Positions 25,857 through 32,383 of a stretch of DNA of 52,334 nt are shown in pieces. Made by a program: the position numbers and the translations under genes. Source of the DNA: Acidobacteriota bacterium (lineage in GTDB: Bacteria; Acidobacteriota; Blastocatellia; Chloracidobacteriales; JADJPF01); assembly GCA_016213785.1 (NCBI GenBank), contig JACQZQ010000093.1:1-52334 (forward strand). Direction: 5' to 3'. The stretch's first letter is position 1. Each line of letters begins with the position of its first letter. Under the pieces are notes generated by a model, which was not told the origin of the DNA, made no database searches, and was given only the letters and a program-made list of their open reading frames with translations.

Positions 25857-26861
25857 ATGGAATGGTTAACAAATAATCCAATAGCCAATTTACATGGTTT
25901 TGAGTTTTTAGGTTTTTACCTATGTTTTGCAGTTTTAACAGTTGTAACTTGTTGGTTACTAATAAAAAATACTGATCAAAGTAATAGTCTTCCTCCATTG
26001 GAAATACCACAAATTCCAGATCCTTACGAGATAGCCTATTTAAGGGGCAAAGAAAACGAAGTGATTCGTCTAGCGATATTTAGCTTAATAGATAAAGGGT
26101 ACTTAAAACTAGGAACTGATTATATAGAAAAAAGAGAAGGTCATCCTGATCCTAGTTTACTTCCTAATTTAGAAAAAAGTTTATTTGGTTGGATTTCACA
26201 GCAAAGTACAACTGTAACAGAAAATTCTGTTACTAAAACTATTAGTGGTGTTAAGCCATATGAGCTTTTTAGTATTAAAAATGGAATGCCTAGTCGAGCA
26301 AAGGTTTACTGTGAGTCCTATCAAAATCTTTTAGAGAAAAAACGCTTAGTTACTTCTGAAAAAGTCAAGGAAGTTGCTTGGAAAGTTGGAACCTCTGGAG
26401 TATTAATTTTAATGGGCTTAACAGGATATAAAATTGCTATTGCTTATAGTCAAGGACGGCACAATGTTGGGTTTTTAATAGCCTTAACAATTTTCTCTAT
26501 AATAGCTTTAATAATAGCTAGTGTTCCATCCCGTTTAAGTAGGCGTGGAAAGCTTTATCTAAAAGAACTACAACAAGCTTTTGCCAACATTGCTAAAACC
26601 GACAAGATGAATGTAAGTTCTCCAAATTATGACTCTCAAGTACCAACATTAGCAATGGCAATTTTTGGTGTGGGAATCTTGGCAGGCACGTCATTTAGTC
26701 TTTTTGAACAAATTTTTCATCGTTCAACTTCAAATAGTAGTTATGCGGGTAGTTACTATGGTAGTGGTTGTGGTAGCAGTAGTTGTGGTAGTGGTAGTAG
26801 TTGTAGTGGTGGCGGCGGTTGCGGAGGTGGCGGTTGTGGTGGTGGCGGCTGTGGTGGTTAA
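25857..26861 (+). CDS. TIGR04222-type membrane protein with Gly/Cys-rich C-terminal tail (putative MNIO substrate)
   Basis: 334 residues. Membrane segments are predicted by eye at ~17-36, ~176-196, ~204-222 and ~262-283. The domain between the first two (including IPDPYEIAYLRGKENEVIRLAIFSLIDKGYL) is the recognisable TIGR04222 region. The C-terminal ~40 residues are almost only Gly, Ser and Cys, with six cysteines spaced mostly by GGGG. Positive charges (SRLSRRGK after the third segment) suggest that the 37-175 domain and the 223-261 loop are cytoplasmic, putting the Cys tail outside. It is followed by a DUF692/MNIO gene and a partner gene. MNIO enzymes modify cysteines in peptide substrates, so the tail is the likely substrate. 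From memory, TIGR04222 proteins often have such tails and DUF692 neighbours. The function is unproven. Confidence 0.82.
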   Translation: MEWLTNNPIANLHGFEFLGFYLCFAVLTVVTCWLLIKNTDQSNSLPPLEIPQIPDPYEIAYLRGKENEVIRLAIFSLIDKGYLKLGTDYIEKREGHPDPSLLPNLEKSLFGWISQQSTTVTENSVTKTISGVKPYELFSIKNGMPSRAKVYCESYQNLLEKKRLVTSEKVKEVAWKVGTSGVLILMGLTGYKIAIAYSQGRHNVGFLIALTIFSIIALIIASVPSRLSRRGKLYLKELQQAFANIAKTDKMNVSSPNYDSQVPTLAMAIFGVGILAGTSFSLFEQIFHRSTSNSSYAGSYYGSGCGSSSCGSGSSCSGGGGCGGGGCGGGGCGG

Positions 26862-26913
26862 TCAAAGACTAAGATAAATTCTTAAAGATAAAAGATAGTT
26901 AATGGGTTAATAT

Positions 26914-27765
26914 ATGATTTTAGATAACTTACCAACTTTAGGCGCTGGAATTGGATTTCGAGATGAGTTTATAGGAGAACTTTTCCTTAATCGTAACAAA
27001 GTTGATTTTTTAGAGATTATCTCTGACCACTATATTGACCCACATCCAATAAAAACAGAGGAATTAGCATTGATTAGAAAGTATTTTACGCTAATTCCTC
27101 ATGGAATAAATCTTTCCTTAGGTAGCGCTGAAGGCTTAGATAAAAATTATGTTAAAAAACTAGCTAAGCTAATTAATGACTTAAACCCGCCTTGGTGGAG
27201 CGAACATATTTGTTTTACTCAAGCAGGTGGTGTTGATATTGGACATCTATCCCCACTACCCTTTACTTGGGAAGCTATTAATGTAATAGTGAAAAACATT
27301 AAAGAGGTTAAACAGCTTATAAATTCTCCTTTAATTTTAGAAAATATTACTTATATGCTAAAAATTCCTGGTGCTGAAATGAGTGAAGCCGAGTTTATTT
27401 CAGAAATCCTAGAACAAACCGACTCAGGAATGTTACTAGATATTACCAATTTATATATAAATTCTATTAATCATAAATTTGATATAGAAGAATTTTTAGC
27501 TCAAATACCTTTAGAAAGAATAGTTCAGCTACATTTTGTTGGAGGATATTTTCATAGAGGAATGCTAATTGATAGCCATTCTCACCCAACTCATAAAGAA
27601 GTTTGGCAGCTTATGGAAAGACTATCAAAAATTACTAAGCTAAAAGCCACAATCCTAGAACGTGATGAAAACTTTCCTAAATTTACTGAACTTTTAGAAG
27701 AATTAGAACATGCTCGCTCTATAGCCTTTAATCCTTCTAAAGAAAGGGCTATGTCGTGGGTTTAA
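26914..27765 (+). CDS. DUF692 family multinuclear non-heme iron-dependent oxidase (MNIO)
   Basis: A 283-residue TIM-barrel enzyme of the MbnB/TglH family. These bind two or three irons and oxidatively rearrange cysteine (or other) residues in ribosomal peptides. Family signatures are all present: GAGIGFRDEF at the start, LEIISDHY, PHGINLSLGS, WWSEHICF, LENITYML, LLDITNLYINSINH, LHFVGG, IDSHSHPTHKEVW and ILERDENFP, supplying the His, Asp and Glu iron ligands. It sits 52 bases after the Gly/Cys-tail membrane protein, and its stop overlaps the next gene by 10 bases. By analogy with MbnB-MbnC and TglH-TglI, the next gene is the expected partner subunit. The chemistry on this substrate is not deducible from sequence. 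Confidence 0.9.
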   Translation: MILDNLPTLGAGIGFRDEFIGELFLNRNKVDFLEIISDHYIDPHPIKTEELALIRKYFTLIPHGINLSLGSAEGLDKNYVKKLAKLINDLNPPWWSEHICFTQAGGVDIGHLSPLPFTWEAINVIVKNIKEVKQLINSPLILENITYMLKIPGAEMSEAEFISEILEQTDSGMLLDITNLYINSINHKFDIEEFLAQIPLERIVQLHFVGGYFHRGMLIDSHSHPTHKEVWQLMERLSKITKLKATILERDENFPKFTELLEELEHARSIAFNPSKERAMSWV

Positions 27766-28340
27766 CAGAAGTTCAAAAAACACTTGCACTGCTTTATACA
27801 AACCGCGAATTGCGGGAAAAGTTTTTGTCTAACCCCCAAGAAATAGCAAAAGATTTTAGTCTAACACCTGTAGATATTGAGCACCTTACAGCCCTTTCCG
27901 CTTTTCATTTAGATGAATTTGCAAACTCTTTACAATATAAACGCTTAGGTGAAGTAATTAAGGTTTTAAGCTTGACTGAAAAAAGCTTAAAATCAGAATT
28001 TTCTGACCTATTTCTTGAGTTTACTAATAATTACCTACCTTCAGGAGTTAAAAAACATCGTGATGATGCACTTGCTTTTACTAAATTTATAATGAGTAAA
28101 AAAAATATCCCTGACTGGTGCAAGGAAATTGCTGAGTATGAAGCTACACGTATTGAACTAGGAGAGGCTAATAAACTACTGGTAATAAAAGTATTTCGCT
28201 ACCCATTAAAACAAATTATCCAAGCACTTTTTCAAAATGAAGAGATAAATATCAGAAAAAAAAGGACTTTGGCTATTTGGTTAAAATTACCTAGTCAAAC
28301 TAAATGGTATCACCGGTTTTTAACTCTTTTTGGTTCCTAG
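27756..28340 (+). CDS. Putative MNIO partner protein, third gene of the cassette
   Basis: 194 residues, starting at GTG inside the end of the MNIO gene (10-base overlap), a strong sign of coupled synthesis. The N-terminal segment LALLYTNRELREKFLSNPQEIAKDFSLTPVDIEHL (residues 9-43) looks like the short helical module seen in peptide-recognition or Nif11-like proteins. The rest is alpha-helical and basic towards the end, with no signal peptide or membrane segment. I do not recognise a named family. Other MNIO systems pair the oxidase with a substrate-binding subunit (MbnC, TglI, HvfC-like), and this gene occupies that position. The partner role is an inference from context. Confidence 0.65.
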   Translation: MGLTEVQKTLALLYTNRELREKFLSNPQEIAKDFSLTPVDIEHLTALSAFHLDEFANSLQYKRLGEVIKVLSLTEKSLKSEFSDLFLEFTNNYLPSGVKKHRDDALAFTKFIMSKKNIPDWCKEIAEYEATRIELGEANKLLVIKVFRYPLKQIIQALFQNEEINIRKKRTLAIWLKLPSQTKWYHRFLTLFGS

Positions 28341-29848: not shown

Positions 29849-31093
29849 GTGAGATTTACTGAAGAAGTTCCGCGATGTTCGTTTTGTCATAAATCGAACA
29901 GAGAAGTAAAAAAATTAATTGCTGGCCCATCTGTTTATATTTGTAATGAATGTATTAATATCTGTAATGATATCCTAGCAGACAATACTAAGGAAGTTGA
30001 ACAGCAACAATCTGGCCTTCCTGCTCCAATGGAAATTAAACGATTTCTTGATCAATATGTAATTCAACAAGACGAGACTAAAAAACGCTTAGCTGTTGCT
30101 GTCTATCAACATTACAAACGAATTGCCATTGCTAAGAAAAAAGCTAATAACAATAAAAAAGCTGATGTTGAAGTTCAAAAGAGTAACGTTTTATTAATTG
30201 GGCCAACAGGTACAGGAAAAACCCTACTTGCACAAACCTTGGCTAGAATGCTGGATGTACCTTTCTGTATTGCGGATGCTACCACTTTAACCGAAGCAGG
30301 CTATGTTGGCGAAGATGTAGAAAATATTATTAGTAAACTACTTGAAGCTGCTAGCGGCGATGTAGAGCAAGCTCAAATTGGAATAGTCTATTTAGACGAA
30401 ATTGATAAAATTTCTCGTAAAGATGATAACCCTTCTGTTACAAGAGATGTTTCTGGCGAAGGTGTCCAACAGTCTTTACTAAAAGTCTTAGAAGGCACAG
30501 AAATTTTTGTCCCTCAAGCTCGTGGCGCTCGCTATGTTCAACAAGAAAGAGTTAAAGTAGATACTACTAACATTCTCTTTATCTGTGGAGGCGCTTTTGT
30601 TGGTTTAGATAAAGTAGTTGAACGTCGTTTAGGAGGAAAAACCTTAGGTTTTCAAGCTGATATTAATAAACGTAGGTTTAGCGCTAGGTCTAATTTACTT
30701 TCACATGTTGAACCCCAAGATTTAATTAAGTTTGGAATGATTCCTGAGTTTGTAGGTCGGCTTGCCTCGGTAAGCTCTTTACATGAATTAGATGAAGCTG
30801 CACTAGTAGAAATTCTTACAAAACCCAAAAACTCTTTAATGAAACAGTATCAAGCACTTTTTGAACTTGATGGTATTCGCATGACTTATACTGATTCATC
30901 TGTAGAAGCTATTGCACGTAAAGCTATAGAATTAAAAGTAGGTGCAAGAGGCTTAAGAATGGTGCTTGAGAAAATTATGTTAGATGCTTTTTATAATTTA
31001 CCGTCACAACGTAAGATAAAGAAATTTGTTCTTACTAGTGAAATGGTTGAAAGTGGAACATTGTCTTTACAGGCTTTAGAGCAAGTTAGCTAG
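29849..31093 (+). CDS. clpX: ATP-dependent Clp protease ATP-binding subunit ClpX, divergent
   Basis: A 414-residue AAA+ unfoldase that feeds proteins to ClpP. The N-terminal zinc domain is intact (Cys 10, 13, 32 and 35), as are Walker A GPTGTGKT (~116-123), the GYVGEDVE pore loop (~149), Walker B IVYLDEID (~179) and the sensor-2 region GARGLR. Two functional loops differ from the usual sequence. The RKH pore loop (normally GGRKHP) reads GARYVQ near residue 226, and the ClpP-docking IGF tripeptide reads LGF near 266 in a modified context. It stands alone, without clpP or tig beside it. It may be the sole ClpX or a second, specialised copy. It starts at GTG with a strong ribosome-binding site. 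Confidence 0.9.
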
Positions 31094-31435: not shown

Positions 31436-32383
31436 ATGCAAACTCTATATGATCCTATTGAACCCTTTGATCAAGGGATGCTTACGGTTTCATCAATCCA
31501 TAAAATCTATTATGAACAAAGCGGTAATCCAAATGGTAAGCCAGTAGTTTTTCTACACGGTGGCCCTGGCGGAGGTACTGACCCAATGTATAGAAGATTT
31601 TTTGACCCTCAGGCTTATCGAATTATAATTTTTGATCAACGAGGCTCAGGTAAAAGCGAGCCATTTGCTTGCCTAGAAGAAAATACTACATGGGACTTAG
31701 TTGCAGATATTGAAAAATTACGTGAGCACTTAGGTATTGAGCATTGGGTAGTGTTTGGAGGATCCTGGGGAAGTACCTTAAGTTTAGCTTATGCTGAAAC
31801 TCACCCAGATAGAACAGTAGCTTTAGTTTTACGAGGCATCTTTTTATGTCGCCCTAAAGAAATAAAATGGTTTTATCAAGAAGGGGCAGATGCTATTTTT
31901 CCTGATGTTTGGGAAGATTACTTAAATTTAATTCCAGTAGAAGAGCGCGCAGATATGTTAACAGCTTATCATAAACGTCTTACTAGCGATGATGAAAAGG
32001 TGCGTTTAGATGCAGCAAGAGCTTGGAGCATTTGGGAAGGCAGTACTTCTAAATTAATTCCTTCTCAATCTCTAATAGATAGTTTTGGTGAACCAGAAAA
32101 AGCCCTACCTCTAGCTCGTATTGAATGCCATTATTTTATGAATAATGCGTTTTTCTCATCAGATAATTACTTAATTGAAAATATAGGGAAAATTCGACAT
32201 ATTCCTGCGGTAATTGTACAGGGTAGATATGATGTTGTTTGTCCAATAATGAGTGCATGGGAACTACATAGAGCTTGGCCTGAGGCAACACTAGAAATAA
32301 TCCCTAATGCAGGACACTCTGCAACAGAGCCAGGGATTATTGACGGACTTGTTAGAGCAACAGACAAATTTAAAGATTTATAG
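31436..32383 (+). CDS. pip: Proline iminopeptidase (alpha/beta hydrolase, S33 family)
   Basis: A 315-residue cytoplasmic peptidase that removes N-terminal proline from peptides. The family signature is clear: HGGPGGGTDPMYRRFFDP oxyanion region near 40-57, DQRGSGKS, and the nucleophile elbow GGSWGSTLSLAYA near 108-120. Catalytic Asp is in GRYDVVCP near 264 and His in NAGHSATEPG near 292. The length is typical of the TIGR01249-type enzyme. The sequence YDPIEPFDQGML at the start matches the usual N-terminus. It is convergent with the lipid-kinase gene and probably monocistronic. Confidence 0.95.
   Translation: MQTLYDPIEPFDQGMLTVSSIHKIYYEQSGNPNGKPVVFLHGGPGGGTDPMYRRFFDPQAYRIIIFDQRGSGKSEPFACLEENTTWDLVADIEKLREHLGIEHWVVFGGSWGSTLSLAYAETHPDRTVALVLRGIFLCRPKEIKWFYQEGADAIFPDVWEDYLNLIPVEERADMLTAYHKRLTSDDEKVRLDAARAWSIWEGSTSKLIPSQSLIDSFGEPEKALPLARIECHYFMNNAFFSSDNYLIENIGKIRHIPAVIVQGRYDVVCPIMSAWELHRAWPEATLEIIPNAGHSATEPGIIDGLVRATDKFKDL

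Follow-up and report, generated by a model that had tools for sequence, protein, structure and literature searches.

The DNA analysed here, a stretch of 52,334 nucleotides (the window), carries a three-gene cassette that we consider, with moderate confidence, to be a membrane-anchored MNIO substrate cassette. The cysteines in the C-terminal tail of a membrane protein would be oxidised in place by the MNIO together with the gene 3 product as its partner, yielding a metal-binding tail. Gene content, conservation, selection, active-site residues and tail composition are supported by direct analysis. The idea of in-place tail oxidation is already in print for this family; TIGR04222-MNIO-(PME-type 2) clusters were described, and the tail proposed as the MNIO substrate, by Antoine et al. 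(2025; PMC12452194). The original prediction, which made the same proposal, is partly supported as a whole, and the locus is not new in kind. The window is part of a 6.4-Mb draft genome of a soil-type bacterium. Among named relatives, the Blastocatellia MAG of isolate nzgw73 comes closest; its contig matches the same-genus genome G001. The cassette has the following parts.

25857-26861, + strand: gene 1, TIGR04222 integral membrane protein, putative MNIO substrate, 334 aa
26745-26858, + strand: Gly/Ser/Cys tail of gene 1, likely modification site, 38 residues (20 Gly, 9 Ser, 6 Cys)
26914-27765, + strand: gene 2, MNIO oxidase (DUF692, PF05114), 283 aa
27756-27765, + strand: overlap of genes 2 and 3, exactly 10 nt
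27756-28340, + strand: gene 3, putative MNIO partner (PME-type 2-like) positioned after the MNIO, GTG start, 194 aa

The three reading frames, the six tail cysteines and the overlap are all as originally predicted. The overlap is likewise 10 nt long in G001, where gene 3 has an ATG start, which supports the GTG start of gene 3 in the window. All three genes are under purifying selection, with dN/dS values against G001 of about 0.15 for the body of gene 1, 0.11-0.12 for gene 2, and 0.17 for gene 3. The cassette is flanked upstream by genes for outer-membrane barrel proteins, MurB and Dus, and downstream by genes for PP2C, ClpX (29849-31093) and an alpha/beta hydrolase of the S33 type (31436-32383). 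Comparison of the relatives' loci shows that conservation beyond the genus is limited to the three cassette genes, none of these flanking genes being found beside the cassette there. The predicted lack of a nearby protease or exporter holds in the sense that none is conserved beside the cassette; for proteases it is only approximately right, as ClpX and the hydrolase lie 1.5-3 kb downstream. A promoter and terminator scan returned signals at chance level only.

Gene 1 scores 82.2 bits against NCBIfam TIGR04222 (near_uncomplex; cut-off 43) and has the low-complexity C-terminal tail that belongs to this family. Most of the tail cysteines are followed by glycine, and three further cysteines lie outside the tail. 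As a 334-aa polytopic membrane protein, the gene 1 product differs from the small Sec-signal precursors of bufferins, and its architecture supports the predicted anchored, rather than released, substrate. The tail is built from GGT and AGT codons, which are one step from TGT, so its cysteine codons might be meaningless products of drift within repeated Gly/Ser codons. This explanation is already disfavoured and we give it hardly any credence, because cysteine lies far above the other one-step neighbours of these codons. Specifically, it accounts for six of the seven one-step Gly/Ser-codon neighbours in the window tail (17% expected, p 1.5e-4) and for 124 of the 216 one-step residues in 19 MNIO-linked tails (13% expected), the 216 residues not being independent because the tails are related. 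Moreover, cysteines are retained in every MNIO-linked member, while the Gly tails of DUF2207-type proteins have none.

Gene 2 matches PF05114 over its whole length with 299 bits (cut-off 25, E 3e-89). Its residues H63, H98, E143, D176, N179, H207, D220, H222 and E249 correspond to all nine iron ligands of TglH (PMC10880893), and alignment of the ligand columns with TglH and MbnB identifies D251 as the catalytic Asp. The catalytic Asp is Asp240 in MbnB (PMC8888699) and Asp249 in FonB, where it is needed for thiooxazole formation (PMC13097082). D251 is equated with FonB Asp249 by its position after the last Glu ligand, the FonB sequence not being part of the alignment. The nine ligands and the catalytic Asp are invariant across all TIGR04222-linked MNIOs examined. 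Hence, judged by its residues, gene 2 appears to encode a catalytically complete MNIO, as had been predicted. It falls below the equivalog cut-offs for BufB (245.8 vs 310), HvfB (223.9 vs 360), MbnB (49.7 vs 325), ApyH (108.7 vs 400) and ChrH (63.6 vs 600).

Besides gene 2, the genome of the window encodes two more MNIOs, both in different surroundings. One, on contig C71 (L041 6383-8472), is in an operon with a 101-aa protein and a DUF2063 partner; the 101-aa protein is Tat-signal-like, has SCKG repeats, and matches BufA2 weakly (18.8 bits vs 60). The other, on the minus strand of contig C130 (L042 4270-6014), is divergent, with Asp for His98 and His for Asn179 at iron-ligand positions and Glu for the catalytic Asp. 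It lies beside a gene for a 297-aa partner that has an NHLP-like N-domain (weak Os1348/NHLP match). The MNIO tree, which leaves out the C130 row, separates the phylum's bufferin-like MNIOs, as a distinct group (100/98), from those linked to TIGR04222, and joins gene 2 with five other MNIOs (96/93). The TIGR04222-linked MNIOs, including two actinobacterial rows confirmed as such, share the same side of a weakly supported branch (73/40), by which a single origin is neither shown nor rejected. A tree with the C130 row, which is very long, and with the two actinobacterial rows counted as unlinked had hinted at several origins.

We surveyed 58 relatives and a set of 396 Acidobacteriota genomes. TIGR04222 proteins are encoded in 15 of the 58 relatives, and in 13 of these an MNIO gene follows directly downstream on the same strand. 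The remaining two (G028 and G043) have DUF2207-type proteins with Gly/Ala tails lacking cysteine, and no MNIO. In the phylum set, TIGR04222 is present in 18 genomes and MNIO in 105. An MNIO occurs in 14 of the 18 TIGR04222 genomes, adjacent in all 14, compared with 91 of the 378 others (Fisher p 5e-6, a value that ignores relatedness). Altogether, Acidobacteriota have 19 TIGR04222 genes with an MNIO directly downstream, and the gene order is constant in the 19 loci. Every MNIO-linked copy with readable downstream sequence is followed by a third-gene-like open reading frame, which in one case is fused to the MNIO. The predicted co-occurrence of the three genes is therefore borne out within this phylum. 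The arrangement of TIGR04222, MNIO and a small open reading frame is also annotated in Tsukamurella. On the Tsukamurella plasmid NZ_LR134462.1, one annotated TIGR04222 CDS (L075 2055-3986) seems to be two joined tandem copies; its middle resembles an out-of-frame Gly/Cys tail, and a frameshift or mis-annotation is likely.

This constancy bears on whether the MNIO has another protein as substrate, gene 1 being just an adjacent gene that might serve as a membrane anchor or a product sensor. In favour of this, the link between the MNIO and gene 1 is a genomic and not a physical one, and the genome does encode two more MNIOs elsewhere. Nevertheless, the three genes alone are conserved, in constant order, and the loci have no other conserved small Cys-rich open reading frame; we regard this explanation as improbable. 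Aside from the cassette genes, some loci have a nucleotidyltransferase-like gene directly upstream of TIGR04222, with weak ANT/MntA matches in L050 (1638-2384), L053 (6704-7471) and L055 (631-1422), and assigned by eye, with no family match, in L036 (4451-5218). A gene that looks TrkA-N-like by eye follows in L050 and L053. On a plasmid of Streptomyces sp. NBC_01527 (L074 2693-8786), a possible separate RiPP cluster encodes a 56-aa Cys-containing open reading frame, a 275-aa partner-like protein, an MNIO, an FAD/NAD(P)-binding protein, a 2OG-Fe(II) oxygenase and an ABC transporter.

All 19 MNIO-linked TIGR04222 proteins have 5-9 cysteines within their last 38 residues. Cysteine tails also occur in genomes that have no MNIO at E 0.001, namely G115 (7 Cys) and G112 (3 Cys). 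G188, which likewise lacks an MNIO, encodes a 916-aa DUF2207-like membrane protein (L054 3927-6677; a weak TIGR04222 match under the cut-off) with a tail of Cys-His-Ser-Ala (CHSA) repeats. Tail cysteines are thus not strictly MNIO-dependent. They might act unmodified, as metal ligands, in thiol redox or in cross-linking; the target of the MNIO would then be a small number of them at most, or a different residue of gene 1. G115 and G112, which also count against in-place oxidation, speak for this, as does the report that a third of TIGR04222 genomes lack an MNIO (PMC12452194); for G115 and G112, loss of the MNIO, which could have happened in both lineages, or a free-thiol role could each explain the tails. 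Set against it are the cysteine-rich tails of all 19 MNIO-linked proteins, the complete lack of tail cysteines in the two DUF2207-type relatives without MNIO, and the adjacency of MNIO and partner kept across wide distances. We consider unmodified cysteines unlikely and prefer in-place oxidation.

A partner role for gene 3 is suggested by its position, as it follows the MNIO, lacks a DUF2063 signature and is TIGR04222-linked, as expected of PME-type 2. It matches no curated NCBIfam or Pfam family above its cut-off. With DUF2063 (PF09836) it gives neither a Pfam hit nor a profile match to DUF2063 proteins, which sets it apart from PME-type 1. A search of PDB sequences gave chance matches only, and Foldseek found no match for a single-sequence AlphaFold2 model that was too poor (pLDDT 57) for a comparison of its fold with NGO1945 or TglI. 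The recognisable part is at the N-terminus.

27768-27935, + strand: N-terminal domain of gene 3 (residues 5-60), NHLP/Os1348/LigA-like, the sole part retained in short relatives

This domain scores 27.6 bits against NF038399, a resemblance only, under the cut-off of 40. The Os1348/NHLP model is matched by all ten third-gene members scanned (E 0.1 or better, best 4e-11) and TIGR04509 by six of the ten; one short form weakly matches LigA and Frankia_peptide. The third gene has a long form of 159-196 aa in the window, G001, G051, G276, G336 and G379, and a short form of 71-103 aa in many relatives, including G012, G373 and G081. Profiles of the two forms match at 98% over the first 70 columns. 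More divergent small open reading frames occupy the position in G021 and on the Tsukamurella plasmid. In G096 (L051 351-1517, minus strand), a Pro-rich linker joins the C-terminus of the MNIO to a third-gene-like domain that is degenerate. Across the 58 genomes, strong hits of the third-gene profile adjoin MNIOs, with the exception of a fragment in G013, which yielded no MNIO. MNIOs of another subfamily stand directly beside the weak hits in G022 and G050.

The matches to the Os1348/NHLP precursor model and to TIGR04509 would also fit gene 3 being a RiPP precursor, with an NHLP-type N-terminal leader and the remainder as core, and gene 1 serving export or tethering. We think this very unlikely: between 71 and 196 aa, the third-gene proteins share neither a conserved cysteine (the window copy has a single one, C122) nor a conserved core motif, in G096 the domain and the MNIO make up a single fused protein, and the C130 partner of the same genome has it inside a 297-aa protein. 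As a partner, gene 3 may be compared with TglI, in which the enzyme is held by a helical N-terminal domain, while recognition of the leader falls to an RRE at the C-terminus (PMC10880893). If the analogy holds, an enzyme-binding domain would have been kept in the short third genes, with the RRE absent. That they are too small for an RRE, the substrate-recognition domain of TglI, counts against in-place oxidation by MNIO and partner; so do the missing sequence link between gene 3 and DUF2063 and the lack, in the relatives' loci, of a conserved gene for a metal regulator or transporter adjoining the cassette.

We then considered on which side of the membrane the tail is located. Insertion energies were recalculated with a published scale, for which poly-Leu, poly-Ala and a Leu/Ala segment served as controls.

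25905-25967, + strand: TM1 (residues 17-37), predicted insertion energy -2.65 kcal/mol, N-terminus predicted outside
26373-26525, + strand: TM2 and TM3 (residues 173-195 and 204-223), predicted +0.87 and -1.86 kcal/mol
26646-26705, + strand: pre-tail hydrophobic segment (residues 264-283), predicted +0.49 kcal/mol, marginal

Among the TIGR04222 proteins examined, the energies of TM1-TM3 are clearly favourable for most segments, and the equivalents of TM2 have negative values in most relatives. The 17-aa N-terminus has no Lys or Arg, and the Lys/Arg-rich loops flanking TM2 and TM3 are predicted to be cytosolic. By its distribution of positive charges, gene 1 would thus have an external N-terminus, with both the 140-aa domain and the 42-aa loop on the inner side. 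The membrane side of the tail is determined by the pre-tail segment, which ranges from +0.16 to +3.25 kcal/mol in all 20 TIGR04222 proteins examined. As this is too weak for a confident membrane helix, the tail may be cytosolic. In DUF2207 relatives, the equivalent C-terminus would be cytosolic, because a predicted signal peptide and an ectodomain fix the orientation. An AlphaFold2 model of gene 1 with one homologue was poor (pLDDT 36). Different from this predicted topology, in which the 140-aa domain looks cytosolic, the tails of TIGR04222 proteins have been assigned to the periplasm, together with large periplasmic domains (PMC12452194). We slightly favour a cytosolic over a periplasmic tail; on a cytosolic tail, a cytosolic MNIO could act without an export step. 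A more specific scheme is a leaderless anchored product, whose cytosol-facing tail is oxidised under guidance of the partner's NHLP/LigA-type leader-like domain in trans, and not by way of a substrate leader and a partner RRE. This scheme is possible, and we hold it only tentatively.

For in-place oxidation, we infer the identity of the substrate, the chemistry, the partner binding and the role of metal as follows. Gene 1 would provide a membrane protein with a flexible C-terminal tail carrying six cysteines. Gene 2 would be a multinuclear-iron, O2-dependent oxidase, to which the tail cysteines become iron ligands before being oxidised. Given the full set of iron ligands together with the catalytic Asp, the likeliest chemistry would be a four-electron reaction that forms rings of the thiooxazole or oxazolone type. 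As the partner, gene 3 would bind the oxidase via its presumably helical N-terminal domain, which resembles leader domains of the NHLP/LigA type. After modification, the tail would remain on the membrane protein, probably binding a soft metal such as Cu(I).

Comparison with known systems places the cassette closest to the clusters of PMC12452194, with which it shares both families, the gene order and the Cys-rich Gly/Ser C-terminal tail; the window locus differs in that it comes from Blastocatellia and its third gene is of the long form. Such clusters are common: in that study, TIGR04222 proteins make up 40% of the more than 1,000 Cys proteins that lack a signal peptide and are encoded ahead of an MNIO. 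Partner genes are present in at least 10% of the TIGR04222 clusters there, whereas here a third-gene-like open reading frame follows every readable MNIO-linked copy. Bufferins and captophorins (BufA/BufB/BufC, HvfABC, FonABC) likewise combine an MNIO with a partner, act on repeated Cys motifs and, in characterised cases, involve thiooxazole and Cu binding. Their precursors, however, are small exported signal-peptide peptides and their partner is a DUF2063 protein. TglH/TglI also pairs an MNIO having the same nine iron ligands with a partner protein, but TglH removes a carbon from a Cys that a tRNA-dependent ligase has attached to the C-terminus, and no such ligase is encoded beside this cassette. 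MbnB/MbnC has the iron ligands and the catalytic Asp (ERD motif) in common with gene 2, and differs in its free peptide substrate with a leader and in the MbnC partner, which is unrelated to gene 3. DUF2207 membrane proteins are distantly homologous to gene 1 in the membrane domain and have a Gly-rich C-terminal tail, but they differ in having an N-terminal ectodomain, in the cysteine-free tails of G028 and G043, and in lacking an MNIO.

In the literature found, neither a characterised TIGR04222-MNIO cluster nor a modification of any TIGR04222 protein is reported. What is new here is the Acidobacteriota survey with its counter-examples, the near-universal third gene with a leader-like domain, the fusion of third gene and MNIO, the active-site check, and the reasoned doubt on tail topology. 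As a compact three-gene locus with a small partner, the cassette is a good test case for TIGR04222-MNIO clusters. If the proposed mechanism is true, MNIO chemistry would extend beyond peptide natural products to protein modification, with a membrane protein gaining unusual sulfur heterocycles in place.
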